Shown here: positions 3 to 13,671 of the stretch, in pieces
Numbering within the stretch: the first letter of the stretch is position 1
Layout: the number at the start of each line of letters is the position of its first letter
Origin: an uncultured Burkholderiales bacterium
Lineage (GTDB): Bacteria > Pseudomonadota > Gammaproteobacteria > Burkholderiales > Burkholderiaceae_D
Reading direction: 5' to 3'
DNA: 13,671 nucleotides
Assembly (NCBI GenBank): GCA_903904635.1
Contig: CAIVDH010000133.1
Coordinates: 1 to 13,671, forward strand
Program-made: the position numbers and the translations under genes
Notes under the pieces: model-generated
The model's input: only the letters and a program-made list of their open reading frames with translations
What the model was told of the DNA's origin: nothing
The model's database searches: none

Positions 3-1721
3 CTTTTAAAGAAAATCGACTCTAAACCTGCCCCGTCCGCAATTGATGTAACAGAGTTCTTAGAAGCATTTTCAAAAACGAACCAAGCAGATGCTTTTAT
101 TACGGATAACTTATTATCAAACCTACCTGAAGAATTGGCCTCTGCAGTAACGCAATACGAAACTGAACAACTCGCTCTCCCCGTTACGACTGACGAGTTG
201 ATTACAACCATAGAAAAATATCTGTTACAAAATAAGCTGGCGGCAGGAACAACATTAAATCTCTCATACGGAATAACGCTGCTACGCGACTTCCATACTC
301 ATCCTGATTTGATATCGAACTTAGATGATCAACGGAGATTGATGGATTTTCTATCTAGTCTTAAAGAAGATTTTCAACGCTATGCACCTACAGCTTATTT
401 GAGAAACATAGCGAAAGTGATCAGCGACCTGAGTAGCAAAATAAACGATCAATATGCAAAATCTGAAGCGGAAGTTAAAACAACAACTACCCAAACTCAA
501 AATTTGCCGCGATGGCACCTTCACCCCAGAAAAATTAGTCAGGCAGACTATCATTACATAGCGGACAACTTGCCAATCAATATGCCTGTCTTGACGCGCA
601 GTGAAAATAATCGGCACGCATACCAGGCATTTCTTGATTTTATTGAAGACCCCAAAAAAAATATCCATGACACGCAGACCCGCAGGCATCTGGATAATTT
701 TTTGAATGTATTTTACGAAGACGTTAACAAGCTCGACCCTAAACTCAGGTCTGCATGCTTAATCCAAATAGACAGACTAGAGGGTGTGTTACAACATCAT
801 CAAAAATGTGATTTGCATGCGCAGATTGTTACAGATTTGAATCAGCATGCCCTGACCACATTACACATCTTACGCAATCAAATCGAGATTAATGGACCAT
901 CGTCGTCCATGCTTCATCTATTTCAATATGTGCTACATCGGAAAAATGCCATTGATATGCAATCGTTCTGGCATTTGTCTGGCTTAAGCAAAACGCAAAA
1001 AAATACGATAAGCGAAAGTCTGCCGCCGGAGACCAGAAAAATATTTAAAGTTTCGATGAATAATCTCAGTAAAGACCTGAAAGAATTCAAGCAGCAAAGT
1101 ATATTGAATCGCCCAAATCTAGTACCAACGTCGCAGGATGCAAGAAGGCAAATTATTACGCATATCGGACTCAAACTTCATGACTTGACGACATTTAAAG
1201 ATAATGAAAAAAACAAATCTGCTTTGGAGGTATTCCTTGCGCAACTATATAAAACAGATTTGAGTCAGCCTTCCACCATAAAAAATCTAGAAGAATTTTT
1301 TTCTTTATTCTTCGGTCAAATCAAGCAGTTAAATCCCGACACTCGAAATTTATGCCTCACTGAAATTGATCGACTTAAAGGGTTGCTTTTGACAGCGCAG
1401 CGCGCCGATATTGAAAGCTATGACTTAACAAAGTTGAAAAATAATAGCCTTATTGATTTTGCCACCGCATTACAACTCAACGCAGCACAATTGGGAACAT
1501 CTGCATTCATCATGGATTTGTTGCACTATCTTGAGAACGGCAGCAAAGCTATCACGCCCACCACATACTGGGCACTAAACCATGTGGCGACAATTAAACG
1601 AGCCAGCATCGCTGCATTGCTAGGCTCGCCGCAAAAAACCTATTTTTCATCCGCGATGATGCAGTTAACTGCCGACTTGCAAACCTTCAAGGCAGCTCAA
1701 ACTCCGTCAGCTCCATCTTGA
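3..1721 (+). CDS. Unrecognised repeat-containing protein, 5' end outside window
   Basis: The frame is open from position 3 to the TGA at 1719-1721, giving 572 visible residues. A TTG at 135 could act as a start, but the open frame before it encodes similar sequence, so the gene most likely begins left of the window. I do not recognise the family. The protein looks soluble and mostly alpha-helical, with no membrane segment in the visible part. It contains two long diverged repeats, about 540-1106 and 1143-1700, and a shorter related unit before them. The clearest shared block is at 699-791 and 1296-1388, where D/N-P, an R-x-x-C-L step and I-D-R-L can be lined up. The gene is visibly richer in A+T than its neighbours (181-240 has 22 G/C of 60), which may indicate a different origin. 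Its last 35 nt overlap the convergent lipoprotein gene. Function unknown. Confidence 0.8.
   Translation, partial: LLKKIDSKPAPSAIDVTEFLEAFSKTNQADAFITDNLLSNLPEELASAVTQYETEQLALPVTTDELITTIEKYLLQNKLAAGTTLNLSYGITLLRDFHTHPDLISNLDDQRRLMDFLSSLKEDFQRYAPTAYLRNIAKVISDLSSKINDQYAKSEAEVKTTTTQTQNLPRWHLHPRKISQADYHYIADNLPINMPVLTRSENNRHAYQAFLDFIEDPKKNIHDTQTRRHLDNFLNVFYEDVNKLDPKLRSACLIQIDRLEGVLQHHQKCDLHAQIVTDLNQHALTTLHILRNQIEINGPSSSMLHLFQYVLHRKNAIDMQSFWHLSGLSKTQKNTISESLPPETRKIFKVSMNNLSKDLKEFKQQSILNRPNLVPTSQDARRQIITHIGLKLHDLTTFKDNEKNKSALEVFLAQLYKTDLSQPSTIKNLEEFFSLFFGQIKQLNPDTRNLCLTEIDRLKGLLLTAQRADIESYDLTKLKNNSLIDFATALQLNAAQLGTSAFIMDLLHYLENGSKAITPTTYWALNHVATIKRASIAALLGSPQKTYFSSAMMQLTADLQTFKAAQTPSAPS
540..1700 (+). 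repeat. Diverged tandem protein-level repeats, about 190-200 residues each
   Basis: Two successive coding segments (540-1106 and 1143-1700) translate to similar proteins. The anchor block starts at 699 in the first and 1296 in the second, a spacing of 199 codons. Shared features are an aromatic-rich helix start, a D/N-P turn, C-L, I-D-R-L followed by G-x-L, and a tail of the form L-x-x-D-L-x-x-F-K. A weaker related block begins at 348. The similarity is visible only in protein, so the duplication is old. Confidence 0.65.
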
Positions 1722-2397
1722 TCGTGCCGGTCGAGAAAAAATTTGACTGCAATATCTCGACCCGCTCCAGCTTCACCAGCCCTACGCCTTTGCAATACCA
1801 CTCAGTGCTCACAATAGGGATATCTTTAAAGCCCTGCACCGCATCGAGATACAGCGGCAAAATACCGTTGCCAGCTATGCGCGCACAATGTTTAAAAGTA
1901 CCTGCTGGGACAGTGACTTCTTCTTCCATGGCTTCGACCACATGCGTCATTAAGACCTTGGGCATTTTCATATCGCCCTGACCGAGATCAGTCTTGGGCC
2001 CAATAGCAAATGGCTGCGAAGGCACCATCCAGGACGAACCTACTGTCAGAGGCAATTTAAGCACAGTGCGTGCATTCGTATCTAATTTGGCCTGCTCTTC
2101 CACATCCGTACGTATGGCTACACGGGAGATACCCACTTTATCTTTGCGCAACCAATATTCCACACCGATGCCACCCACAATTTCAGCGCGACGTATAAAA
2201 ACCTGATCACCACCTTCATAATCAATCGTGCGCGGCACCGAACTAACCTGGGTATGATGCGTCACGGCGCTATCAATGTCAGAGGTAACATCATAGGTCC
2301 AGCTAGAGCCGACATTAAGCGGAAAATAAGATTCACCAGTAGGCTCATGCGAGCAACCGGCCAGCAGCAGCAAGGCCGTTATGGATAAAAGACGCAT
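1687..2397 (-). CDS. Predicted outer-membrane lipoprotein, last gene of the pqq operon
   Basis: Three consecutive ATG codons (2403, 2400, 2397) follow a GGAG. The third has the best spacing (8 nt) and starts a compact lipoprotein signal, so I chose 2397; the ATG at 2403 would give an ATGA overlap with the preceding stop. The first 15 residues are a signal peptide ending in the lipobox LLAGC, with Cys15 the predicted lipidated residue. Ser rather than Asp follows the Cys, which by the Lol sorting rule favours the outer membrane. The mature part (about 220 residues) looks beta-rich and has two similar blocks, LNVGSSW near residue 27 and LTVGSSW near 117. No enzyme motif is visible. It is the distal gene of a tightly packed operon with a proton-channel pair, so it may be the outer-membrane end of that assembly (inference). 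Its 3' end overlaps the convergent repeat-protein gene by 35 nt. Confidence 0.85.
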   Translation of the reverse strand: MRLLSITALLLLAGCSHEPTGESYFPLNVGSSWTYDVTSDIDSAVTHHTQVSSVPRTIDYEGGDQVFIRRAEIVGGIGVEYWLRKDKVGISRVAIRTDVEEQAKLDTNARTVLKLPLTVGSSWMVPSQPFAIGPKTDLGQGDMKMPKVLMTHVVEAMEEEVTVPAGTFKHCARIAGNGILPLYLDAVQGFKDIPIVSTEWYCKGVGLVKLERVEILQSNFFSTGTIKMELTEFELP

Positions 2398-2399
2398 CA

Positions 2400-2912
2400 T
2401 CATTTCTCCGGCAGACGCGTGGCAGGTGCATCGCTGACTTTGAGTTTGATCTTGTTGTCGGCATTGACCTTGAACCATGACGAACCACTACCGCCGCCTG
2501 GGCGATCTATCGAACCGATCTGACGTATGCCCTGACGGCCTTTGCGCTGCGCTTCAGAGAGCTGCGCATGATTGTCCTTCAGATACGGCAAGCGATAAGC
2601 GCGCGGTGCGCCATTTGGGCGATTGCCTTCCAAAGAAGTCACCCACAAATAAATCGCGCCTTCTAGGCCACGCTCTTTATTGGGCTCTTCGATCAACGCA
2701 GAATTGATGATGAATTTTTCAGGCAGTACCCGCGGTGTCGGCCAGCCCAGCATATCTTCAAAGGTAAAGTTGGCGACAAAATAGCTGACTGTTACGACGA
2801 AAATCATCAGCACCTTGATCCAGCGCTTCCAGCCTGTGGCCAGACAAAGTATCAGCAGCCCAGCGGCTACGACTACATACAAAAAAGTCAGTAAGAGCGA
2901 AGTGTTGTTCAT
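2400..2912 (-). CDS. Small protein with two N-terminal membrane helices, unknown function
   Basis: Encodes 170 residues. Two hydrophobic helices lie at about residues 5-25 and 31-49, followed by a soluble region of about 120 residues that is probably periplasmic. That region has a Pro-rich start, a YLW segment near residue 88, and a Gly/Ser-rich stretch (GGGSGSS) near 139-145. I recognise no family. The ATG at 2912 overlaps the TGA of the ExbD-like gene (ATGA, 2909-2912). No good Shine-Dalgarno sequence is visible, so translation is probably coupled. The stop at 2400-2402 lies among the ATG codons of the lipoprotein gene. The packing suggests it works in the same membrane complex as its neighbours (inference). 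Confidence 0.8.
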   Translation of the reverse strand: MNNTSLLLTFLYVVVAAGLLILCLATGWKRWIKVLMIFVVTVSYFVANFTFEDMLGWPTPRVLPEKFIINSALIEEPNKERGLEGAIYLWVTSLEGNRPNGAPRAYRLPYLKDNHAQLSEAQRKGRQGIRQIGSIDRPGGGSGSSWFKVNADNKIKLKVSDAPATRLPEK

Positions 2913-3514
2913 GTTTGCGGTGCAAGTTGTTTAGGTAGGGTATTAATATTGCTGACGATGCCTTGTGCATCGACGGTAAATCGTACTGCAGTTTTTTCGT
3001 CGCCCTTGCTTTCGAGCTTAACGGTACCGTAAAAAGAAATTTCTGCCTTAGGATTGACCTTAACGACAGAGATATTCGCCTCAACCGGCTCTTTGTTTTT
3101 AGATTCGTAGTACTGCACATTGACGGTATATTCACCAGGCGCAAACCCGCGTATGGTCACGACTTCCTGATTGATAGGATTAACGACGTCTTTGCCATTG
3201 ACGGCAATCGTATCTCCCGCCAGACCGCGATCATCGCGGTCCAGATGCATCAAGCCTGCTTCGCGCTGACGAAACCAGGTCATGCCGCCGTTCGGATCCT
3301 GCACATAGGTGTCGAGGTCATTAGGATTCATGTCCGGCCACGAAACCGTAATAATGAATTCGGCTTTGGCAGGAACATCACCCTCTTTTTTTGCTTTCGG
3401 ATTCATCGACAATAAGGCGATGATGAAACAGAAAACAAAAGCAATGAGGATATTAAAGAGCATGTCGTAGAAGGGATCGACCTCGCCTTCACGACGCTTT
3501 TTACGCAAACTCAC
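2909..3514 (-). CDS. ExbD/TolR-like protein with atypical periplasmic domain
   Basis: Encodes 201 residues from a GTG start at 3514, which overlaps the upstream stop (GTGA) and is preceded by AGGGGA at good spacing. A short basic N-terminus leads to V-D-P-F-Y-D and one membrane helix at about 18-36. Asp17 sits where ExbD, TolR and MotB proteins carry their proton-conducting Asp. The rest is periplasmic but does not look like the usual short ExbD/TolR domain. Around residues 56-77 it has SWPDMNPNDLDTYVQDPNGG, an acidic motif resembling the W-x-D-x-x-D-L-D-x-x-V-x-D-P-x-G signature of DUF2135-like beta-sandwich domains; that resemblance is from memory, not a search. With the preceding gene it forms a probable proton-driven stator or energiser pair. 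What it drives is unknown; its place behind pqqE points to PQQ or quinoproteins. Confidence 0.82.
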   Translation of the reverse strand: MSLRKKRREGEVDPFYDMLFNILIAFVFCFIIALLSMNPKAKKEGDVPAKAEFIITVSWPDMNPNDLDTYVQDPNGGMTWFRQREAGLMHLDRDDRGLAGDTIAVNGKDVVNPINQEVVTIRGFAPGEYTVNVQYYESKNKEPVEANISVVKVNPKAEISFYGTVKLESKGDEKTAVRFTVDAQGIVSNINTLPKQLAPQT

Positions 3515-4275
3515 GTTTTCCCCTGGCGGGTCAGGGCGGCTAATTGTGTTTCAGCGAACTCCAGTGAATCAGCCAGAATGCCATCACTGCATCTATCCAT
3601 TTTTACCAGTTGAATACCGAGCAGCATGTTAGCAACCAAGCCTACTGCGGTTGTCAGCAATGCCACGCCCAGTCCACCGGTTAAGGTCTTAAGCAAGTTT
3701 TGCGATTGTGAGGGATCAAAATTTTGAATCTGCGAGATTTCAATGGCGAGTATGGAAAAGCCGATCACTTTACCCAACAGGCCCAGTTTGATTTGTATGC
3801 CATTAATCCACCAGGCGGATTCGCTGGGGCCATGCAGGCGCTCGGCTAACACTTCGGTCAGCTGGCCATTATCGTAATCCTGGTATTTACTCTTGCCGAC
3901 TAACGCAGCAAAATAATCATTGACGCTGCCAGTCAGCCCCACTGGTGCAAGCGACAAGCCAAACTGCGGCCTGACTGCCAGTATCCATGCATTCAGCGAC
4001 TGCCTTTCATTGGCCAGCGCAGCTGCACGTATCCCCACCCAAATGGTAGAGAGCACAAACACCACAATGATCATCAGGGTGATGCCGGTAGGATCAGCCG
4101 CAACCAAGATGCCCCATACATTGGCGCGCCAAAGCAGAAAGGCCGCAAATACTAAAAAGCCGGTGAAACTGAGCCACTGCAGAAAAAATGCATCCGATGA
4201 GGACCGGATCAATACTGTGGCACTACGTTTAAAGATCCGCGTAAGCGGAAGAAGCATGCGTGCCACAACATTCAT
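3511..4275 (-). CDS. MotA/TolQ/ExbB-type proton channel protein
   Basis: Encodes 254 residues. Four hydrophobic segments lie at about 31-52, 64-84, 159-182 and 200-222. The third carries LGLLGKVIGF and the fourth GVALLTTAVGLVANM, the two conserved helices of the MotA/TolQ/ExbB family (Leu-Gly-Thr-Val-x-G and Ala-Leu-x-Thr-Thr-x-x-Gly-Leu patterns). Between the second and third is a cytoplasmic loop of about 75 residues. Members of this family form a pentameric inner-membrane channel that couples proton flow to movement of an ExbD/TolR/MotB-type partner, and such a partner is encoded by the next, overlapping gene. The ATG at 4275 lies one nucleotide after the pqqE stop, so it is cotranscribed with PQQ synthesis genes. 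It is not TolQ of a normal tol-pal cluster, as no TolA, TolB or Pal is present. No TonB gene is in the window. Confidence 0.87.
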   Translation of the reverse strand: MNVVARMLLPLTRIFKRSATVLIRSSSDAFFLQWLSFTGFLVFAAFLLWRANVWGILVAADPTGITLMIIVVFVLSTIWVGIRAAALANERQSLNAWILAVRPQFGLSLAPVGLTGSVNDYFAALVGKSKYQDYDNGQLTEVLAERLHGPSESAWWINGIQIKLGLLGKVIGFSILAIEISQIQNFDPSQSQNLLKTLTGGLGVALLTTAVGLVANMLLGIQLVKMDRCSDGILADSLEFAETQLAALTRQGKT

Positions 4276-4276
4276 T

Positions 4277-5446
4277 TTATGAAACCTTGTCTCGTTCTTC
4301 TTTTATAGGAATCGAAGCATATTTCATGGAGTTGGCATCGGTTCGAAACAGTAACGGCTTTTCTGCCACCTGCACCGGATTAAGCTGCGCCTGCATGACT
4401 ATCTGCTTCACGTCACCATGATGAGGTGACTTACTGCATACCGGATCGGCGTTTTCAGCTGCCCCTGTCAGCGCGTAGGCCTGGCAACGGCAACCACCGA
4501 AATCTTTGTCCTTGTCAGGACATGAACGGCAGGGCTCCTTCATCCAGGCATCGCCCCGATACCGGTTGAATGCATCGCTTTTATACCAGATTTCTTCTAA
4601 TGTTGCCTCAGTGACATTCGGGAATGTGAGTCCCGGCAAACTTTTAGCGGCATGACAAGGCAAGGCAGAACCATCTGCAGCAACTGCCAAAAATACTGAA
4701 CCCCAGCCATTCATGCAGGCTTTGGGGCGTTCTTCAAAATAATCAGGCACCACAAACAAGATGCGCACTTTTTTACCGAGCTTGGCACGATACTCATTCA
4801 CCACGGCTTCGGCACGTTCTAACTGCTCGCGGGTAGGCATCAACTGATCGCGATTGACCATGCCCCAACCGTAGTACTGCGTATTGGCCAGCTCCAGATA
4901 TTCCACGCCCATTTCAACCGCCATTTCAATAATGCGGCCTACATGGTCGAGGTTATAGCGATGCAAAACCACATTCAACACCATGGGGTAATCATATTGC
5001 TTGATGAGCTTGGCTACGCGTGACTTCAATTCAAAGGTCTTGGTACTGGAGAGAAAATCATTCATCTCCTTGGTCGAATCCTGAAACGAGAGCTGTATAT
5101 GATCAAGCCCAAGTTCTTTCATGCGCGAAATGCGTTTTTCAGTCAGGCCTATGCCAGAGGTAATCAGGTTGGTGTAAAAGCCAAGTCGATGTCCTTCACC
5201 GATCAGCTCTTCCAGATCATCACGCACCAGCGGCTCACCACCGGAAAAACCCAATTGCGCTGCACCCAACTTGCGTGCCTGCTGCAATACATCCATCCAT
5301 TGCGCCGTGGTCAGCTCATTGCGATTTTCAGCATAGTTCAGTGGGTTGTAGCAAAACACACAATGCAAAGGGCATTTGTATGTCACTTCAGCCAAGAGCC
5401 ACAATGGTGGCGGTATTTGCGTTGGTTCAGAAATTAGTTCAGACAA
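4277..5446 (-). CDS. pqqE: PqqE, radical SAM peptide cyclase of PQQ synthesis
   Basis: Encodes 389 residues, normal for the family. PqqE uses S-adenosylmethionine and iron-sulfur clusters to join the Glu and Tyr side chains of the precursor peptide PqqA, the first step of PQQ synthesis in the cytoplasm. The radical SAM motif is Cys25-x3-Cys29-x2-Cys32, followed by the GGEP motif at 69-72. The C-terminal SPASM region has seven cysteines, from ACMNG through PCHAA, PCRSC and GGCRC to VCSK, which would bind the auxiliary clusters. The only suitable start is TTG at 5446, lying inside pqqD with an 8-nt overlap and preceded by GAGG at 5 nt. There is no nearby in-frame ATG. The TTG start and overlap suggest translational coupling to pqqD, its delivery partner. 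Confidence 0.97.
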
Positions 5447-5702
5447 TCCAGCCTCGCTCGGTTGCTATTTCAAGAAAGCCTTTTACATCGGCTTCCAGTC
5501 CAGTGGCGTTAAATGTTTGCTCAATATCGGCGACGATAGCCGGCACATCACGCTCGCCATCACAGCGCTTTAAAATCTCACCGGCGCTTTGATTGAGCTT
5601 GACCATCCCTTCGGGATACAACAACACATACGCACCCTGCGCCTCTTCCCATTGCATGCGAAACAATCGCGCAAGCTTGGGCTTTTCAGAAAATTCACTC
5701 AT
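5439..5702 (-). CDS. pqqD: PqqD, PqqA-binding chaperone
   Basis: Encodes 87 residues, typical for PqqD. PqqD is the founding type of RiPP recognition element: it binds the precursor peptide PqqA and presents it to PqqE. The family signature is visible in [16 protein letters not shown] and in the C-terminal part ([10 protein letters not shown], then a helix ending ERGWIV). The frame is open further upstream to an ATG at 5753, but that would add 17 residues unlike PqqD and overlap pqqC. The ATG at 5702, 11 nt after the pqqC stop, gives the family length, so I chose it. The Shine-Dalgarno sequence is weak. Its stop overlaps the pqqE start by 8 nt, consistent with stoichiometric production of the PqqD-PqqE pair. 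Confidence 0.95.
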
Positions 5703-5713
5703 GCTGACATCTT

Positions 5714-6424
5714 TCAGGGATACGCTTTTTCGATGGCGTCCGAAATGGACCACAACACATCGAGCTTAAATTGCAAAATCTCAAGCGCGCGCTCTTGCTG
5801 CGCACGCGTAGTGAAATATTCCAGCGTGACGGCAAGACCATGCATGACATCACGCTCGGCCAAGGTAATGCGGCTGCGGAAATAAGCCAGACCATCATCA
5901 TTGACCCACTTGTAATGCGTAGGCCAGTTCGCCAGACGATCTTTATGGATTTTTGGCGCAAACATTTCTGTCAGCGATGAGCAGACTGCTTCCTGCCATG
6001 GTGACTGTCGCGCAAAATTTACATACGCATCCACAGCAAAGCGCACACCCGGCTCCACTTTTTTCAGGGACCATAATTCTTCACGCGAGATACCCACTGC
6101 TTCACCTAAGCGCGTCCACGCTTCGATGCCGCCTTCTTTGCCATCGTAACCATCATGATCCAAAATACGCTGCACCCATTCACGACGGATAGCACGGTCC
6201 GGACAATTGGCAATGATGGCCGCATCTTTGACCGGAATTTTGACTTGATAATAAAAACGATTGATAACCCAGCCACGTATCTGCTCGGGCGTGAGTTCAC
6301 CATTGTTCATCTTTACATTGAACGGATGATTGATGTGATAGCTGGTGCCCTTGGCGCGCAACTGCGCTTCAAATTCTGTATGGTCCCAGGGTAGTGCGTT
6401 AGCGATATTAGTTTGTGCGTTCAT
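5714..6424 (-). CDS. pqqC: PqqC, pyrroloquinoline-quinone synthase
   Basis: Encodes 236 residues. PqqC catalyses the last step, ring closure and eight-electron oxidation of AHQQ to PQQ with oxygen and without a metal or cofactor, in a helical fold related to haem oxygenase and TenA. Family signatures are visible throughout: [16 protein letters not shown] near the N-terminus, [11 protein letters not shown], the DHDGYDG region, RLGEAVG, and C-terminal THYKWV and YFRSRI, which hold His, Tyr and Arg typical of the active site. No truncation is seen. The ATG at 6424 overlaps the pqqB stop (ATGA) and has GGAG 8 nt upstream inside pqqB. Confidence 0.97.
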
Positions 6425-7356
6425 ATTGAAATCTCCATGCCATCAAATGCGACTTCGATACCGTGCTTTGCCAATGAAGCACGCTCGGCCGAGTCTTCGT
6501 TCAAAATCGGGTTAGTGTTATTAATATGGATCAGCACTTTGCGGCGTGCGCCTATGCTGTCCATTAATTCAATCATGCCGCCCGGGCCTGATAACTGCAG
6601 ATGACCCATGTCGGCCGCTGTTTTTTGTGACAAGCCCAGCGTAATCATTTCGTCACCCGTCCACACGGTGCCATCAACTAACACGCAATCCGCTTTTTCC
6701 ATTGCGGCCTGCACATGCGGCTCTATCTCACCTAAGCCTGGTGCATAAAACAAGGTTTTGCCGGTCTCAATATTTTCGATTAACAAACCATTGTTGTCGC
6801 CCATTTGCGGATTAGCGCGATGCGGTGAATACGGCGGCGCTTTACTTTTTAATGGCAAAGGATGAAAGCGTATGCCAGCTACACCAGGCACTTCTATAGG
6901 CGCAAAGCTCGTTGTATCACCAGCAGCCGCTGGGCTGATTGCATGACGCTCTACACCACAGTAATGCGACAGCACCGGCACTAAGGGCAGGCCATGATTG
7001 AGATCGTCCCACACCGAATCAGTGCAATACAGATTGAGTTTCTTTTTGCCTTCACGCAGCATCAACAAACCTGTTACGTGATCTATCTGCGCATCCATCA
7101 CCATCACCGCGGCGATACCTGAATCGCGTATCGCGCGCGCTGGCTGCAATGCAGGGTTGGCGCGGATTTGCGTCAGTATGTCGGGGGAGGCATTGATTAG
7201 CACCCAATCAACACCGTTATTAGAAACGGCAATCGATGATTGCGTGCGTGCGCGTGCATTGATGGTGCCCTTGCGTACGCCATTACAGTTAGTGCAATTG
7301 CAATTCCATTGTGGGAAACCACCGCCTGCAGCAGAGCCTAATACAAGAATTTTCAT
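6421..7356 (-). CDS. pqqB: PqqB, metallo-beta-lactamase-fold PQQ synthesis protein
   Basis: Encodes 311 residues, the normal PqqB length. The start [19 protein letters not shown] is characteristic, and Cys19, Cys21 and Cys24 form the CxCxxC metal site typical of the family. The [10 protein letters not shown] segment is the PqqB version of the metallo-beta-lactamase metal motif. PqqB has been proposed to hydroxylate the cross-linked Glu-Tyr intermediate before PqqC acts. It is the first gene of the operon. The ATG at 7356 lacks a recognisable Shine-Dalgarno sequence; the leader instead has ACCTCCT, an anti-Shine-Dalgarno sequence, just upstream. An in-frame TAA about 24 nt upstream rules out a much longer form. 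Confidence 0.97.
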
Positions 7357-7546
7357 GATTTTCAGGAGGTCAGATTAATTTGGATACTTAACATTCTTTA
7401 CGTGTTTGACGCACTCTCGCGCAAAACTTTAAACAAAAGCTGAACCCGGCATGGACTTACATGAATGAGAAGCCTGCGGTCCAAATCGGACGCACAGGGT
7501 CAGTTACGTGCATAATCGTCTCGGGCACTACACTCTGAAAATCGAG

Positions 7547-7570
7547 GTTTTACACTTATAAGAGTAAAAC
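7547..7570. repeat. Inverted repeat in the pqqB leader / pip upstream region
   Basis: The arms are GTTTTACACT (7547-7556) and AGAGTAAAAC (7561-7570), nine of ten positions complementary, around a TATA spacer. It could be a regulator-binding site, or a hairpin at the very start of the pqq transcript if the proposed start near 7575 is right. The A+T-rich stem favours a protein-binding site over a terminator. Confidence 0.5.
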
Positions 7571-7585
7571 TACTTTGATTCAGAA

Positions 7586-7601
7586 TGCAGCTTTTGTTCC
7601 A
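7586..7601 (-). promoter_or_regulatory. Candidate sigma-54 promoter for the pqq operon
   Basis: On the minus strand the sequence TGGAACAAAAGCTGCA has the invariant GG and GC exactly 10 nt apart and differs from TGGCAC-G-N4-TTGCA at three fixed positions. The start of transcription would fall near 7575, leaving a leader of about 219 nt before pqqB. A sigma-54 activator gene lies about 1 kb away. The match is moderate and could be chance. Confidence 0.4.
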
Positions 7602-7656
7602 TCTGTTTTTTTAATTTGCTGATCCATTTTAGCGCAACTACTCTCACTAAAAATTC

Positions 7657-8601
7657 ATGGCTGCGACCGCTTTCGACCAACAACACCTGCAAGCAGGTGA
7701 TGGACATACCCTCTACGTGGCACAGTATGGCAAGCCCGATGGCCCTGCCGCTGTAGTACTGCATGGCGGCCCTGGCAGCGGTACGCAACCCTCTGTGCTG
7801 GAGTGGTTTGATCTCTCAAAACAGCGCGTAGTGCTATTTGATCAACGTGGCGCTGGGCTATCACAACCTCAGGGCGAGATTCTGCACAACGATAGTCACA
7901 AACTGGTTGCCGATATTGAACTACTACGCGCATCACTGGGTATCACCCAATGGATGGTGGTCGGTGGCTCATGGGGCGCAACATTAGCGCTACTGTATGC
8001 AGGGCAGCATACGCAACATGTGCAGTCGCTGGTTTTACGCGGCAGTTTTCTTGCCAGCGCACGTGAAATGCAATGGTTTTTTCAATCATTGTCGGCGCTG
8101 GTGCCGCAGGGCTGGCAGCGCCTGACGCAGGGCTGGTCTCATCATGAAAAAAACCATGTACTCGACAAACTCTGCGCCATGCTGCTGCATGGTGAGGCAC
8201 AAGAGGCCAGCGATGCAGCCGGACGCTGGAGTGATTATGAAAATGAAATCATGCGTGTGATGGCTGGCTCTGCAGCCTTGGATACTGACCAATCAAGTAA
8301 GGCATCAGCACGCACATTGGGCAAATACCGATTGCAGGCGCACTACTTGTCTCATCAATGCTTTACCAGTGAAAGAACGTTACTGCGCATGGCGCATAAG
8401 CTGCGCGCTGTTCCTTGCGCCATCATTCATGGCACGCATGATCTGGTCTGTCCGCCTGAAAATGCATGGCGCTTGCGGCGTTTTATGCCGCACGCAAGTA
8501 TGCATTGGGTCAGCAAGGGTAGTCATACGCCTGCAGATGCGGGAATTGCAAAAGCACTCACTGACGCTATACGCGACCTCACTGATGCAACAAAAAATTA
8601 A
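7657..8601 (+). CDS. pip: Proline iminopeptidase, alpha/beta hydrolase family S33
   Basis: Encodes 314 residues, typical of prolyl aminopeptidases, which remove an N-terminal Pro from peptides in the cytoplasm. The oxyanion motif HGGPGSG is at 36-42, DQRGAGLS at 62-69, and the nucleophile elbow GGSWG at 103-107 with Ser105 as nucleophile. Asp262 (in GTHDLV) and His290 (in KGSHTP) complete the likely triad. No signal peptide is seen. The ATG at 7657 is the only sensible start, but no clear Shine-Dalgarno sequence precedes it. It is transcribed away from pqqB and ends 48 nt before the convergent regulator gene, with no strong terminator visible. Some PQQ clusters carry a peptidase that trims cross-linked PqqA; whether this enzyme does so is open. 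Confidence 0.9.
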   Translation: MAATAFDQQHLQAGDGHTLYVAQYGKPDGPAAVVLHGGPGSGTQPSVLEWFDLSKQRVVLFDQRGAGLSQPQGEILHNDSHKLVADIELLRASLGITQWMVVGGSWGATLALLYAGQHTQHVQSLVLRGSFLASAREMQWFFQSLSALVPQGWQRLTQGWSHHEKNHVLDKLCAMLLHGEAQEASDAAGRWSDYENEIMRVMAGSAALDTDQSSKASARTLGKYRLQAHYLSHQCFTSERTLLRMAHKLRAVPCAIIHGTHDLVCPPENAWRLRRFMPHASMHWVSKGSHTPADAGIAKALTDAIRDLTDATKN

Positions 8602-8649: not shown

Positions 8650-10677
8650 TCACTGATGCAGCTTGCGATAAATAGTGTTACGCGACACGCCAAGTGTGCG
8701 CGCAGCGGCAGAGACATTGCCGCCATGCTCATCCAACGCTCTTTGTATTGCCAATAATTCCACATCTTCTAGTCGTGCTGGCGCAGCTACCGTTTTTTTC
8801 AACGCTTGCGTAGGTATCGCAGCTTCTGCGACCAAGGCATCATCAACGGCCTTGACGTCTTCAAGAAAATCTTCCGGCAAATGCTCTAGCCTGACCACAT
8901 GATCCTCATCAGCCATGACCATGGCAGTACGTAACAAATTAGTCAGCTGACGGAAATTTCCAGGCCATGCATGCCGCTTGAACAAGTTCATCACTTCCGG
9001 CGTAACAGAGTAAGCCTGCCCATCTGATTCTATCGCCAGTAATTTATTTATCACGACCTCAAGATCGGTGCGTTCACGCAAAGGCGGCAATCTCACCACC
9101 AATCCATTTAAACGATAGTAGAGATCTTCACGAAACAAACCCTTGGCAATCAGATCACGCAAATTACGGTTAGTCGCACATATGAGTGAGACATTAACAG
9201 GTATGGATTTATTACTCCCCAAAGGCATGACCAGGCGCTCTTGCAGTACGCGTAACAAGCGTGCCTGCAAACTCAGTGGCATGTCACCTATCTCATCGAG
9301 AAATAATGAGCCGCCATTGGCTTGCAGGATTTTGCCGGTGCTACCTTTTTTACGCGCACCGGTAAATGCGCCATCTTCGTAACCAAATAATTCTGATTCA
9401 ATCAAGGTTTCAGGGATGGACGCACAATTGACTGCTACAAACGGACCGCTGGCACGCGGTGAATCATTATGTATAGCTTGCGCGAGCAGCTCTTTGCCGG
9501 TACCGGTTTCACCGGTTACCAGCACAGGAATATCCCGCCCCATCACCAAATTAACTTTTTTGATCAGCGCTGCGACTTTTTCATCGCCGGTATTAAGGTA
9601 ATGCAAACTTGAAAGCCCCCGACGACGCGCCATATTTTCAACATCAGACAAATTTTCTTTGCTGCTTTTGACCGGCTCTTTGCGAATTGGTTCTTCCACT
9701 GCGGACTGCAAAAACAAATTCGTACTTCTTAATTCAGCCTTCGCCAACACTTTCACACCTGTATGCAAGCAGAGATTTAACAGCGTAGGCGCAGCAGTGC
9801 GGTAGTGATCAAATAGCGCAGAAACGGGCATGCCGAAAAGTGAGCTGAATGTATGTGTTTGCAATGCAGACAGGGGCAAACCTAACTGAAACAATCCGCT
9901 ACGGTTGGCAGATAAAAATCGCCCCGATGTTGAGAATGAAGCAATCCCTTCCATCAGCGTGCCTATAAATTCAGGACGGCTATGAAAGTGCAAGGTAATG
10001 GCATCATCGAAGGCGGCAGAAAATAGTTGATTTTCTATCATCTGCGCCGACATTCTGACCAAAGCCATCGTGTGCTTGTGAAAGCTGCGCTGGTCTCCGG
10101 TGACATCGAGCACGCCGATCAACTGTCCCTGATGATTCACGATCGGGGCAGCAGAGCAAGTAAGAAAATGATTGGCCGTGAGGTAGTGCTGATCGGCGTG
10201 TACCAACGTTGGCGCTTTTTCGGCAATAGCCGTTCCTATGGCATTGGTTCCTTTGCTTTGCTCAGACCAGGCAACTCCGGCGCGCAAGGCCACTCTGTCA
10301 GCTTTTTCGAGAAAATCATCATCCCCCAGCGCGTGCAAAATTATGCCCTGCGCATCAGTGAGTATCACCATGTTGTGGGTGTTGATGATTTGCTCGTAAA
10401 GCGTCTCCATGACTGGCACAGCATGCGTATGCAAACCACGGTTGGCATCGACCTTGTAAATCAGGTCTGCCTTTTGCAAAGGCGCATAGTCAGGTCTAGA
10501 GTCTTGTTGCAGACCGAAGGCGAGCGAACGTTTGTGAGATTCTTCAATCATGGCGAGTTGTGAATTCGCATGAAGCATGCCAATCGATTGATGTTGCTTA
10601 TCCGGCAATATCAATTCGGCGCCTTCCGTCAAACCGCTTTTTTCCCCTTGTGAATAGGGGCCTGAGGCGCTTCCCAT
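8650..10677 (-). CDS. AcoR-type sigma-54-dependent transcriptional activator
   Basis: Encodes 675 residues. The frame is open back to 10869, but that would read through the divergent promoter and into the cytochrome gene; ATG 10677 has a strong GGAGGAG at proper distance, so I chose it. Domains in order: a GAF sensor at about 91-221 (GTNAIGTAIAE at 143-153, HFLTCSAAPI at 170-179), a degenerate PAS-like region at about 235-310, an AAA+ domain with Walker A GETGTGKE at 389-396, the sigma-54-contact loop GAFTGA at 436-441 and Walker B GGSLFLDEIGD at 455-465, and a Fis-type helix-turn-helix at about 652-673. There is no phosphoreceiver domain, so it probably binds an effector directly. The AcoR family commonly controls acetoin, alcohol or glycerol catabolism. 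A sigma-54 promoter lies in front of the divergent cytochrome gene, its likely target (inference). Confidence 0.93.
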   Translation of the reverse strand: MGSASGPYSQGEKSGLTEGAELILPDKQHQSIGMLHANSQLAMIEESHKRSLAFGLQQDSRPDYAPLQKADLIYKVDANRGLHTHAVPVMETLYEQIINTHNMVILTDAQGIILHALGDDDFLEKADRVALRAGVAWSEQSKGTNAIGTAIAEKAPTLVHADQHYLTANHFLTCSAAPIVNHQGQLIGVLDVTGDQRSFHKHTMALVRMSAQMIENQLFSAAFDDAITLHFHSRPEFIGTLMEGIASFSTSGRFLSANRSGLFQLGLPLSALQTHTFSSLFGMPVSALFDHYRTAAPTLLNLCLHTGVKVLAKAELRSTNLFLQSAVEEPIRKEPVKSSKENLSDVENMARRRGLSSLHYLNTGDEKVAALIKKVNLVMGRDIPVLVTGETGTGKELLAQAIHNDSPRASGPFVAVNCASIPETLIESELFGYEDGAFTGARKKGSTGKILQANGGSLFLDEIGDMPLSLQARLLRVLQERLVMPLGSNKSIPVNVSLICATNRNLRDLIAKGLFREDLYYRLNGLVVRLPPLRERTDLEVVINKLLAIESDGQAYSVTPEVMNLFKRHAWPGNFRQLTNLLRTAMVMADEDHVVRLEHLPEDFLEDVKAVDDALVAEAAIPTQALKKTVAAPARLEDVELLAIQRALDEHGGNVSAAARTLGVSRNTIYRKLHQ

Positions 10678-10680
10678 ATG

Positions 10681-10689
10681 TCTCCTCCC
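10681..10689 (-). promoter_or_regulatory. Strong ribosome binding site deciding the activator start
   Basis: Minus-strand GGGAGGAGA lies 3 nt upstream of the ATG at 10677 (GGAGG core to ATG 6 nt). It supports this start over the much longer open frame reaching 10869. Confidence 0.8.
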
Positions 10690-10767
10690 GCGCAAAACAA
10701 CTGTTTCTTTTTTTATCGGTGTTGTCCACAGGAATGTAGCACTTGTTCCGTTATGACGCAAAAGACT

Positions 10768-10783
10768 AATTTGCGAGCAAATT
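10768..10783. promoter_or_regulatory. Perfect palindrome upstream of the sigma-54 promoter
   Basis: AATTTGC and GCAAATT are perfect inverted arms separated by GA. The centre is about 51 nt upstream of the predicted cytochrome transcription start, between the two divergent genes. It may bind a dimeric regulator. Enhancer sites for sigma-54 activators usually lie further upstream, so binding by the adjacent activator is only one possibility. Confidence 0.45.
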
Positions 10784-10800
10784 TCTTCTGACTTACTGCA

Positions 10801-10816
10801 TGGCACGGCAATTGCG
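10801..10816 (+). promoter_or_regulatory. Sigma-54 (-24/-12) promoter of the cytochrome operon
   Basis: TGGCACG, GCAA, TTGCG matches the sigma-54 consensus TGGCACG-N4-TTGCW at all but the last position, with the invariant GG and GC 10 nt apart. The predicted start is near 10827, giving a 33-nt leader with GGAG before the cytochrome ATG. The divergent gene encodes a sigma-54 activator with an intact GAFTGA loop. Confidence 0.85.
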
Positions 10817-10859
10817 GTAAAGCATGTAAAATTTAAACCTCTAAACGGAGTAAAACCCC

Positions 10860-11333
10860 ATGAACGCACTCGCCCGCATCGTGCTTACCAGCGCCACACT
10901 CGCTGCCAGCTTATTAATTTCCAGTTCGGTTTTTGCCCATGGCGACGTCACACCGCAGGCTGTTGACACCAAATCATTGCCGCCTTTGGGCGACAAATGG
11001 GCCGCAGATAATCCTTACCGCGGCAATGACGGCGCCATCAAAGTCGGCACCTCTGCCTATGCCCAGAACTGCGCTCGTTGCCACGGTATTGATGCCATAT
11101 CTGGCGGTATAGCGCCTGATCTGCGTATGCTGGATCGTGATTGCATGACACAAGCTGAAGCCAAGAAAACAAGCTGCATCAAAGAAAATGATGATTATTA
11201 CGCAACCACGGTACGCAAAGGTCGCGTACGTAATGGCGCCGTGTACATGCCGCCGTTCGAAGGCATCTTGCAACAAGAGGCTGTTTGGGCAATCAAGGCT
11301 TATTTGGAAACACGCCGTACCGACAAGCCTTAA
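10860..11333 (+). CDS. pedF: Periplasmic cytochrome c, PedF-like (c-550 type)
   Basis: Encodes 157 residues. Residues 1-26 form a Sec signal peptide ending VFA. The haem-binding motif is CARCH at 71-75, and Met130 in VYMPPF is the likely sixth ligand. Two further cysteines (95 and 106) could form a disulfide. The size, the GDKWAADNPYRG segment and the loop between haem site and Met ligand fit the cytochrome c-550 PedF type, which takes electrons from PQQ-dependent alcohol dehydrogenases. The ATG at 10860 is preceded by GGAG, with somewhat long spacing (10 nt), and by a sigma-54 promoter. It heads an operon with a substrate-binding-like protein and a NosR-like protein. The quinoprotein dehydrogenase itself is not in the window. 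Confidence 0.88.
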   Translation: MNALARIVLTSATLAASLLISSSVFAHGDVTPQAVDTKSLPPLGDKWAADNPYRGNDGAIKVGTSAYAQNCARCHGIDAISGGIAPDLRMLDRDCMTQAEAKKTSCIKENDDYYATTVRKGRVRNGAVYMPPFEGILQQEAVWAIKAYLETRRTDKP

Positions 11334-11434: not shown

Positions 11435-12262
11435 ATGCAATGCTTTACCGTTCGGGGCCTGATGGCAACCTTGGCAGTTGTCTGCGGCACTATGCTAGTT
11501 CATGCAAGTGCTCTGGCAGACATGGAAAAAATTCGCGCTAAGGGCAAACTGACCGTCGCAATCTATGATGACTTCGCACCTTTCTCCGGCAAAGCCGGTG
11601 GTATTGATGTCGATCTGGCTGAAGCACTGGCAAAAAAATTAGGGCTCAAGCTGTCCTTGCTGCCTTTTCCTGCTGGCGAAAATATCAATGATGATTTGCG
11701 CAATATGGTCTGGAAAGGACATTACCTGGGATTTGGACCAGCCGATGTGATGATGCATGTGCCCGTTGATCGCAGCGTTATGGCTAGCAACGATAAAGTA
11801 GAAATTTTCGCGCCTTATTATCGCGAGATGATCAAGCTTGTTCGCAATATCAAAACCATACCGGAAGTGCAAAGCAGTGCTTCGCTAATAGGTAAGCGTG
11901 TGGGTGCCGAGAAAGTCTCTATCTCGTCCATGGTGCTATTGGGTGACCGTGAACTGCGTGAATATGTACAAATTTTTCCTACCGCACTTGAGGCATTGGG
12001 GAAACTGAAGGCCGGTGAATTGGATGCCGTTGTTGCGACCCGTTCCGAAATTGAATCTGTCCTGCGTGGCGATACAAATTTCGAATTAATTGATGCGCCT
12101 TTCGAGCGGCTGCCGCGCAAAGGCTGGGTCAATGGCATGGCCGTCATCAAAGAAAATACAGAACTGGCCAAGCTGCTACAGGCCGCTGTTAATGAATTAT
12201 TCGAGTCCGGTGAAATGACCACCATATTTGCCAAGCATGGCGTAAAGTCAGTCAAGCCCTAA
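11435..12262 (+). CDS. Quinoprotein-associated substrate-binding-like protein (MxaJ/XoxJ type)
   Basis: Encodes 275 residues. The first 28 or so form a signal peptide ending ALA. The mature protein has the periplasmic binding protein fold of family 3: KGKLTVAIYDDFAPFS at the start, then GGIDVDLAEALAKKLG, GPADVMMHVPVDR, and in lobe two GKRVGAEKVSISS and LKAGELDAVVATRSE. No ABC permease or ATPase gene accompanies it. With a PedF-type cytochrome upstream it fits the quinoprotein dehydrogenase-associated class that includes MxaJ and XoxJ, thought to assist maturation or activation of PQQ dehydrogenases rather than import a solute. The ATG at 11435 follows AGGGGA with about 7 nt spacing. Its stop TAA is directly followed by the ATG of the next gene, so the two are likely cotranslated. 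Confidence 0.88.
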   Translation: MQCFTVRGLMATLAVVCGTMLVHASALADMEKIRAKGKLTVAIYDDFAPFSGKAGGIDVDLAEALAKKLGLKLSLLPFPAGENINDDLRNMVWKGHYLGFGPADVMMHVPVDRSVMASNDKVEIFAPYYREMIKLVRNIKTIPEVQSSASLIGKRVGAEKVSISSMVLLGDRELREYVQIFPTALEALGKLKAGELDAVVATRSEIESVLRGDTNFELIDAPFERLPRKGWVNGMAVIKENTELAKLLQAAVNELFESGEMTTIFAKHGVKSVKP

Positions 12263-13671
12263 ATGCGCAAGCTGCTGGCAGCTTGGTTGTTGCTGTGCGC
12301 CGTAGTCTGTGGCGCACATGCCGGCGTGATGACCAAAGAGACGCTGGCGAAAAAATTCCCTTCGCCTTTAGTACTCGGTGACAAAGATAGCGAACTGCCG
12401 ATCTGGCCCATATTCAAACAAAATGCCACCGCCACAGAGCTGGTCGCTTATGTCTATGAATCTATAGATTTCGTTGCGCTGCCCGGCTTTGCCGGTATAC
12501 CAGTCAATCTGCTCATTGCGCTCGACCCCAAGGGTAATTTTATGGAAGTACAGGTGCTCTCGCATCATGAGCCTGTATTTCTGGAAGGCCTGGGTGAGCA
12601 GCCATTATTTAATTTTGTGAACCAGTACAAAGGTTTGTCACTGACACAAAATATTACGATAGAAACGGGCACCCGCAAGACAGCAAAAATGGATGGCAAT
12701 AATGTGCGCATTGATGGCGTCTCCAAAGCGACTGCATCGGTGCGCATCATTAATCAGACTTTACTGACTTCGTCTCTGGCAGTAGCGCGAAAAAAACTGG
12801 GCTTCTCAGGCAGCTATGATCCGGATCAGATCGCCCGTTTAAAGCCAGGCTTTTTTGAAAAACAAACGAGCGCAGATTTATTTGGAAAAAATTTAATTAC
12901 GCATTTTTCTCTGGCCAATCGGGATATAGAAAATATATTTAAAGGCACAGCAGGCGAAGGGCTGGATACAGAAGGCGGTGCCGCACCGGATGCTGTGTTC
13001 ATTGATATGTATACCGCCATGGTATCGGTACCTAGCATAGGCAAAAATTTACTCGATGGCCCTAGCTGGGAAAAGCTGGCCTGGCGTCTGGAAAAAGGCG
13101 ATCACGCGCTACTGGTCATGTGGGGCGGTCGCTACAGCATTACGCCAGAAGATTTCACGCCCGGCACTTCACCTGAACGCCTGACTTTAAAACAAGGCGG
13201 ACTGCCCATAGAGATGCGCGATCTTGATATTGATTTGCATCTGGCCGATGGCACACCTATCGCGCCTGATCAGATGAAAGTCTTTCGCGTGATTAGCCAG
13301 ACCGGACTGGATTTATCCAAGCCGCTGGATTTTTCGCTGAATGTGAAGCGTGAAAAAGGCATGGTCTATCCGGAAATCATACGCAAATCATTCGACTACA
13401 AGCTTGATGTACCTGAGCGCTTTTATGATGTGCCGGCTGGCGACAACAAAACCTGGGTCAGCATCTGGCAGCAACGCGCTGTTGAGCTGGGCATATTGGG
13501 CACAGCACTTTTTATTCTGACGATATTGCTGGTACAGCAGCGCTGGCTGACTGCAAATGCGCGCCGCTTCACTGTCATACGTGTGAGTTTTTTATTGTTT
13601 ACGCTGGGCTTCATAGGCTGGTATGCGCAAGGCCAATTGTCTATTGTGAACATGACTGGCGTGCTGCTGGC
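12263..13671 (+). CDS. NosR/NirI-like flavin-binding membrane protein, 3' end outside window
   Basis: The frame is open from ATG 12263 to the window end (469 codons). Residues 1-20 are a signal peptide ending AHA. A periplasmic part of about 385 residues follows. At 153-159 it reads VSKATAS, corresponding to the S/T-G-A-T motif by which NosR and RnfG-type domains attach FMN to Thr; here Thr157 is kept but Gly is replaced by Lys. Membrane helices lie at about 407-427 and 438-455, and GWYAQGQLSIVN at 452-463 is a characteristic NosR/NirI segment. Full-length relatives continue with more helices and a 4Fe-4S ferredoxin-like end, which would lie beyond the window. NosR feeds electrons from the quinol pool to periplasmic nitrous oxide reductase. 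Here the neighbours are quinoprotein partners, so a link between membrane redox carriers and alcohol oxidation is inferred, not shown. Confidence 0.85.
   Translation, partial: MRKLLAAWLLLCAVVCGAHAGVMTKETLAKKFPSPLVLGDKDSELPIWPIFKQNATATELVAYVYESIDFVALPGFAGIPVNLLIALDPKGNFMEVQVLSHHEPVFLEGLGEQPLFNFVNQYKGLSLTQNITIETGTRKTAKMDGNNVRIDGVSKATASVRIINQTLLTSSLAVARKKLGFSGSYDPDQIARLKPGFFEKQTSADLFGKNLITHFSLANRDIENIFKGTAGEGLDTEGGAAPDAVFIDMYTAMVSVPSIGKNLLDGPSWEKLAWRLEKGDHALLVMWGGRYSITPEDFTPGTSPERLTLKQGGLPIEMRDLDIDLHLADGTPIAPDQMKVFRVISQTGLDLSKPLDFSLNVKREKGMVYPEIIRKSFDYKLDVPERFYDVPAGDNKTWVSIWQQRAVELGILGTALFILTILLVQQRWLTANARRFTVIRVSFLLFTLGFIGWYAQGQLSIVNMTGVLL

Follow-up and report, generated by a model that had tools for sequence, protein, structure and literature searches.

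The 13,671 nt contig CAIVDH010000133.1 of an uncultured Burkholderiales bacterium (the whole stretch is called the window here) carries, directly behind the pyrroloquinoline quinone (PQQ) synthesis gene pqqE, four genes for a putative trans-envelope device: an ExbB/TolQ-like protein, an ExbD-like protein, a protein with two membrane helices (TM2) and a lipoprotein. Sequence comparison across bacteria and viruses makes us highly confident that this set shares ancestry with a cassette of phages and is linked to quinoproteins. As to its function, we tentatively favour, at somewhat less than even confidence, a device of the proton motive force (PMF) type, from a lineage shared with phages, that was recruited to assemble or maintain the periplasmic quinoprotein machinery. 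Quinoprotein assembly or maintenance would be the likeliest single job, although far from certain, with envelope upkeep second and the energising of an outer-membrane importer third.

The window (13.7 kb) comes from a 2.47 Mb assembly of 443 contigs with a completeness of 87.9 %. The initial annotation had described a packed leftward unit of eight genes, and this description was confirmed by coordinates, profile cut-offs, hydropathy and lipobox: pqqBCDE are followed on the minus strand, within positions 1687–7356, by the ExbB-like gene, the ExbD-like gene with its membrane Asp, the TM2 gene and the lipoprotein gene (Table 1). Within the pqq block, pqqB and pqqC overlap by 4 bases, pqqC and pqqD are separated by 11 bases, and pqqD and pqqE overlap by 8 bases. 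A single base separates pqqE from the ExbB-like gene, and the junctions from there down to the lipoprotein gene overlap by 4, 4 and 1–4 bases (depending on the start).

Table 1. Features of the window discussed in the text
Feature	Position	Strand	Evidence
ExbB/TolQ-like four-helix membrane protein, 254 aa	3511..4275	-	PF01618 E 1.7e-4; family profile to solved TolQ; alignments A2, A7
Lys169 codon, position of TolQ pore Thr145	3769..3771	-	TolQ alignment
ExbD-like protein, 201 aa: one membrane helix and a periplasmic beta domain predicted to be TerD-like	2909..3514	-	
Asp17 codon, invariant membrane Asp (D16 in alignment numbering, start residue omitted)	3464..3466	-	47/47 rows
TM2, 170 aa: two membrane helices, periplasmic domain, conserved C-terminal tail	2400..2912	-	alignments A3, A6
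Lipoprotein, DUF3108-like	1687..2403	-	PF21347 24 bits, under cut-off 27; alignment A4
pqqB	6421..7356	-	TIGR02108 417 bits, cut-off 245
pqqC	5714..6424	-	TIGR02111 340 bits, cut-off 240
pqqD	5439..5702	-	TIGR03859 109 bits, cut-off 46
pqqE	4277..5446	-	TIGR02109 543 bits, cut-off 381
Sigma-54-dependent regulator, frequent neighbour	8650..10869	-	matched in 51/80 related loci at E 1e-10
Cytochrome c-550 PedF of quinoprotein systems	10860..11333	+	TIGR04494 204 bits, cut-off 122; 44/80 loci
Periplasmic binding-protein-like gene, weak MoxJ similarity	11435..12262	+	TIGR03871 18.9 bits, under cut-off 212; 39/80 loci

Hydropathy gave four membrane stretches for the ExbB-like protein, one for the ExbD-like protein and two for TM2, and the last protein of the set has an LAGC-S lipobox. 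The AlphaFold2 model of TM2 (mean predicted local distance difference test score, pLDDT, 88.1) places its helices at residues 3–25 and 30–55, and the model of the ExbD-like protein has a single N-terminal membrane helix at residues 13–36. Against the Pfam family MotA_ExbB (PF01618), the ExbB-like protein of the window scored 21.8 bits, just below the cut-off of 22.9, and its ExbD-like protein had no match to ExbD (PF02472) at E≤1; at best, the two are distant members of these families. At the same threshold the ExbD-like protein had no OmpA-type match and none of the four proteins matched TonB; the search for TonB covered these four proteins and not the rest of the genome. Five other proteins of the source genome exceed the MotA_ExbB cut-off.

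Bacterial relatives were collected by a scan with the ExbD-like protein over one genome per species, and 80 of 115 loci were kept. Their labels are nearly all Burkholderiales, families of that order or beta-proteobacteria, with a few wider ones, including one Hyphomicrobiaceae (L074). The alignments (A1–A9) were built from hand-picked subsets of the loci studied. The order ExbB–ExbD–TM2 was found in 80/80 loci and the lipoprotein gene in 77, the remaining three (L012, L056 and L080) stopping at a contig edge; such recurrence argues that the arrangement is not due to chance. In most loci adjacent genes of the set share 4 bases or lie almost end to end. L013 was left out of A2–A4 because the frames cut from it for ExbB, TM2 and the lipoprotein hold stops; its ExbD frame holds none, and the stops reflect decay, an assembly error or a mis-cut frame.

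Genes of quinoprotein biology surround the set. The markers counted were a relative of PqqB–E, PedF, a PQQ alcohol dehydrogenase and parts of the PQQ alcohol-dehydrogenase ATP-binding cassette (ABC) system, and at least one was present in 76 of the 80 loci and in every locus of 12 kb or more (61/61). With the same list, one of 20 control stretches of 20 kb, placed at round coordinates in four carrier genomes, was positive. The gene directly upstream of ExbB encodes PedC in 28 of the 80 loci, PqqB or a PqqB-like protein in ten, PqqE in eight and other proteins in 33, with one contig edge; the upstream gap is at most 14 bases in all but L014 and L018. Among ten upstream genes examined with profiles, L061 yielded PqqB over the cut-off, L020, L029 and L043 PqqB-like proteins below it, and L024 a PQQ-associated propeller; the profile search of the upstream genes of L051, L064 and L076 gave no match.

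Co-occurrence across genomes points to the same link. The ExbD-like profile was found in 20 of 130 genomes (129 genera) sampled from the family around one carrier, in which PqqC exceeded its cut-off in 27 and PQQ alcohol dehydrogenase in 51. PqqC was present in 14/20 carriers versus 13/110 non-carriers (p 1.8e-7), and PQQ dehydrogenase in 20/20 versus 31/110 (p 4.6e-10), both p-values ignoring shared ancestry. Completeness is 98–100 % in the six carriers without PqqC, each of which has a quinoprotein marker next to the set. In a sample of 300 genomes from the order, five of six strong matches came with PqqC over the cut-off; a seventh match, in G010, is weaker (E 4.5e-26); this genome lacks PqqC and was left out of the strong count. 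Conversely, the set is lacking in 13/27 PqqC genomes of the family sample and 54/59 of the order sample. In the window's own genus, 19/21 genomes have the ExbD-like gene and 17/21 a dehydrogenase over the cut-off. These counts indicate that the set tracks the use of quinoproteins more closely than the making of PQQ.

The initial annotation had proposed that the four genes form a trans-envelope device for the export, uptake or loading of PQQ, and had suggested scoring their co-occurrence with pqqC. Its core idea survives, in that the genes look like one trans-envelope device tied to PQQ biology, and pqqC is indeed enriched among carriers, but the dehydrogenase link is the closer one. An add-on to PQQ synthesis or export is not supported: pqqC or pqqE lies within the fetched stretch in only 12 of the 80 loci, and carriers without PqqC have the dehydrogenase. 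Many Gram-negative bacteria scavenge PQQ, and Escherichia coli takes it up through the TonB-dependent receptor PqqU (PMC12124388).

The second half of our main finding concerns phages. Counting duplicates, 27 records of Rhizobium and Sinorhizobium phages contain a match to the ExbD-like protein that spans at least 80 % of its length, with identities of up to 40 %. In the seven of these records that were fetched, an ExbB-like gene precedes and a TM2-like gene follows the ExbD-like gene, and in two of them homing-endonuclease genes stand between cassette genes (L098, 3225–3983; L100, 4535–5077). Bacterial profiles match these ExbB and TM2 partners weakly; firm matches were obtained only when the profiles also contained other phages. 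A search of IMG/VR returned 150 relatives, of which 80 were kept; removal of near copies at 75 % identity left 45 viral and seven phage loci. The trio is complete in 78 of the 80 IMG/VR loci, with L107 and L110 beginning at a contig edge, and its order is identical in 78/78; L114, L151 and L155 have about 1 kb extra between ExbD and TM2. With bacterial profiles alone, E 1e-8 is already passed by 78 of the ExbB and 67 of the TM2 genes of viruses (E-values for a small frame set). The lipoprotein appears to be missing: its best match in the 87 viral and phage loci was at E 0.04.

Neighbours of the phage cassettes include a terminase and a Clp gene of the head-protease type, which fits a phage origin of these loci; no other neighbour is conserved around them. 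Five tRNA genes lie directly behind the cassette of Rhizobium phage RHph_I1_18 (L097, 5101–5914), and a trypsin-like protease gene stands just before it in three Rhizobium phages of 59–69 kb (L098, L099 and L100).

The trio also occurs in other cells. In a phylum-wide sample, 20 of 398 genomes matched, four of them by short and weak matches, and ten belong to a family with genomes of 6–9 Mb, here labelled f88. The f88 loci read (eight short and six longer stretches) contain the trio, and the lipoprotein was not found in them. In one of these loci, L197, the trio is followed by genes for a calcineurin-like phosphoesterase and a Ser/Thr kinase with a Usp domain (5746–7931, minus strand), with a divergent histidine kinase gene; genes equal to these in size follow the trio in L194, L195 and L198, and not in L196 or L199. 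Near the trio of L196 lie genes for PedC (57 % identity) and a MoxJ-type protein, making this locus a possible bridge between the f88 and quinoprotein contexts. Two remote ExbD matches were found in each of seven records of Azospirillum megaplasmids, and the trio is present in the single stretch that was read (L241, 5112–7100). Wide occurrence without pqq genes, which the initial annotation had named as a refutation of its idea, is a property of the three-gene core, in phages and f88, and not of the four-gene form, which was seen only in Burkholderiales-type loci (L074 being labelled Hyphomicrobiaceae). The lipoprotein profile found 343 relatives and the single ExbD-like sequence 5133, in searches of different kinds, which fits a core more widespread than the four-gene form.

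A tree of 55 ExbD-like proteins, with no outgroup and small cellular sampling, groups the Burkholderiales-type and f88 proteins together (support 97/98; f88 alone 100/99, Burkholderiales type alone 89/72). The remainder consists of phage and viral proteins of far greater diversity, with two cellular long-branch proteins beside those of small Rhizobium phages. This pattern fits a capture from phages; the tree being unrooted, the reverse direction is also possible.

Kinship with known motors is seen in the ExbB-like protein. The combined family profile (A7) matched solved structures of TolQ (E 1.2e-4), MotA (E 8e-4) and ExbB (E 0.014), and the TolQ pore threonines 145 and 178 align to its positions 169 and 209. 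In TolQ, Thr145 and Thr178 form a polar ring near the essential Asp of TolR (PMC12215075). Position 209, in the second motif, is Thr in 41/41 alignment rows, and in the ExbD-like partner the membrane Asp is likewise invariant (47/47 rows). Position 169, in the first motif, is Lys in the window and in 73 of the 75 Burkholderiales-type loci (out of 80) from which an ExbB frame was recovered, L009 being counted as Lys on its reading GLLGKV although the motif pattern missed it. Viral and phage loci yielded 85 frames out of 87, with Thr in 79, Asn in two, Ala in one and three unread; f88 proteins have Thr in 6/6. The two Burkholderiales-type loci that retain Thr are L056 and L058, and L058 is the first branch of its clade in the ExbD-like tree (L056 is outside the tree). 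Motors of this kind have a 5:2 stoichiometry. Five lysines near two aspartates could neutralize them, and the Burkholderiales form may not pass protons.

The periplasmic domain of the ExbD-like protein is predicted to be TerD-like in fold, its model matching the fold of solved TerD. One such entry, 2kxt, is a calcium binder by its title. Quinoproteins depend on calcium or a lanthanide (PMC12124388). The resemblance to the TerD family has its limits, as no match was found here at the level of sequence, and TerD is a soluble cytoplasmic protein whereas the ExbD-like protein is membrane-tethered. A long phage family of unknown function, phrog_1735, matches the periplasmic domain (E 7.9e-6, positions 422–558 of 673), so that some large phage proteins may contain this domain as well.

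Taken together, our data are consistent with a model in which the products of the genes behind pqqE form a stator in the inner membrane, of the ExbBD/TolQR/MotAB type, with TM2 behind it. Its three-gene core would be a lineage of its own, common to large tailed phages, and the Burkholderiales core, which sits in PQQ alcohol dehydrogenase loci, would have gained a lipoprotein of the outer-membrane type. The device would act in the periplasm, at a stage that follows the synthesis or import of PQQ and enzyme. It would use or sense the proton gradient in order to load or retain cofactor and metal, and the lipoprotein would link it to the outer membrane. To our knowledge, the assembly of PQQ and metal into enzymes is poorly understood.

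Several observations weigh against this model. The marker list was built from NCBIfam-named genes that recur in these same loci, and the profiling of ten upstream genes also returned genes other than PQQ genes, such as the sigma-54 regulator (L035) and a response regulator (L070). The set is missing from 31 of the 51 family-sample genomes with a PQQ dehydrogenase, and hence is not generally needed. A quinoprotein marker was not found in five of the six f88 loci which, together with the presence of the trio in phages, indicates that the basic action is not specific to quinoproteins. The replacement of the pore Thr by Lys means that proton conduction may be lost. As for the predicted head, the titles of two entries among its six best fold matches name something other than TerD, Pfam PF02342 gave no match at E≤1, and hhalign against 20 TerD sequences returned a probability of 0.9 %.

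A bolder version of events can be drawn, which we consider possible but doubtful. Large phages would carry a hitherto undescribed family of three-protein envelope motors with TerD-like heads in the periplasm, and cells would have captured it, perhaps once. The Burkholderiales form would then have been refitted for quinoproteins by an added lipoprotein and by a ring of Lys in place of the proton-handling Thr, so that the former proton motor would now be locked or would serve to sense or to handle anions.

Foremost among the alternatives, and in our view unlikely yet worth serious consideration, is a general envelope-integrity or stress device: a Tol-like trio that steadies the envelope against periplasmic alcohols and aldehydes, keeps the infected cell sealed, and is under the control of sensor kinases in f88. 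This would cover all three contexts, namely phages, quinoprotein loci and f88, where L197 has the phosphoesterase, the Ser/Thr kinase and the divergent histidine kinase. However, it leaves unexplained both the strict quinoprotein tie of the Burkholderiales form (61/61) and the pore Lys, which is seen only in that form.

We give less credence to a private energiser that replaces TonB–ExbB–ExbD and drives the outer-membrane uptake of PQQ, a metal or a metal carrier through a TonB-dependent receptor. Such a receptor is encoded within the fetched stretch in 26 of the 80 loci and in four of the six carriers without PqqC, and there is a precedent in the PqqU import of E. coli, pqqU adjoining the PQQ operon in four Burkholderiales genomes (PMC12124388). 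Nevertheless, none of the set proteins matched TonB at E≤1, the receptor tested, which is cut by the locus end, reached 99 bits against a PqqU cut-off of 1200, and receptors are not conserved neighbours of the phage cassettes. The five other MotA_ExbB proteins over the cut-off in the same genome and the Lys in the pore are further points against a dedicated energiser.

A part in phage defence or counter-defence, related to the ZorAB pair of Zorya by the same motor fold, is very improbable. ZorA models matched the single phage-type ExbB-like protein that was tested (L104) at E 1.4e-9, and models of the PD-T4-6 kinase matched the kinase encoded next to the trio in the f88 locus L197 at E 3e-51. 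The window protein reached only E 0.0023 (14.7 bits) against ZorA, the matches lie over the generic motor helices, no ZorB, ZorC or ZorD match was found among ten proteins tested, and the Burkholderiales context is metabolic.

Least credible of all is the export of PQQ from the cytoplasm to the periplasm or medium: the set does lie 1 base behind pqqE in the window and behind pqqE in eight of the 80 loci, and a Lys ring would suit PQQ, which is an anion, but six of 20 carriers are 98–100 % complete genomes without PqqC, in which a PQQ exporter would be useless, many PqqC genomes lack the set (13/27 and 54/59, as above), and phages and f88 hold the core without adjoining pqq genes.

The rest of the window has further features. 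No small peptide with the E-x-x-x-Y motif of PqqA was found in the approximately 300 bases (7357–7660) before pqqB, and pqqA may lie elsewhere in the genome; a pqqA-like small gene was likewise not found in the approximately 300 bases before pqqB in L008–L011, L016 and L018, and is present before pqqB in L058, L070 and L071. A candidate sigma-54 promoter with an exact consensus match (10801–10815, plus strand) lies 45 bases before pedF, beside the gene for the sigma-54-dependent regulator. An open frame of 572 aa (3–1721, plus strand) converges with the lipoprotein gene, overlapping it by 35 bases; it had no NCBIfam match, and tblastn found no counterpart in the 80 related loci. A gene for a NosR/RnfG-like membrane protein (12263–13669, plus strand), which ends at the contig edge and scores 283 bits against a NosR model with a cut-off of 1000, was matched in 15 of the 80 loci. 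A TctC-type tripartite-tricarboxylate receptor protein is encoded near the set in 28 of the 80 loci.

In the open-licence literature of PubMed Central (PMC) we found no paper describing the four-gene set or the phage cassette; subscription papers were outside the search. PMF motors are known in motility, phage defence, type I secretion, membrane stabilization and nutrient import (PMC12204202), and generic ion transporters with added domains of unknown function have been reported (PMC12505986). The words PQQ and TerD were not found in the main text of either paper, in which phages figure in the defence sense. If our reading is correct, the set represents a further branch of PMF motors with a different periplasmic head, present in many large phages and in quinoprotein loci. 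It would add a new viral activity, in which the host envelope is driven or sensed, and would supply alcohol oxidation in the periplasm with a new accessory, and the change from Thr to Lys would be a natural experiment on the role of the pore residue.

Known systems resemble the set in part. Like TolQ–TolR and ExbB–ExbD, it pairs a multi-helix A protein, bearing the pore motifs G-x-x-G-(T)-V-x-G and T-x-x-GL, with a single-helix B protein bearing the membrane Asp. Unlike them, it has a B protein that does not match PF02472 and whose periplasmic domain is predicted to be TerD-like, and the set is without TonB or TolA, has TM2 as a third protein and, in the Burkholderiales form, has Lys at the Thr145 position. 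MotA has four membrane stretches. The MotAB and PomAB stators are alike in that the A protein here has four predicted membrane stretches and a profile match to MotA (E 8e-4), and differ in that no flagellar gene was seen beside the set and no OmpA-type match was obtained for the B protein at E≤1.

The PQQ alcohol-dehydrogenase ABC system (PedC TIGR03861, TIGR03863 and TIGR03866) shares its loci with the four-gene set, but is an ABC system and not a PMF motor. Zorya has in common with the set a motor-type membrane pair in a phage-related setting, and is unlike it in that ZorB, ZorC and ZorD had no match among the proteins tested and the cassette is borne by phages themselves. Finally, TolQ motors with membrane-tethered vWA partners have been reported (PMC12204202), and these likewise combine a TolQ-like motor with an Asp-bearing partner that has a different periplasmic domain. 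The set described here differs from them in the predicted TerD-like domain of that partner, in its third membrane protein and in the presence of the cassette in phages.

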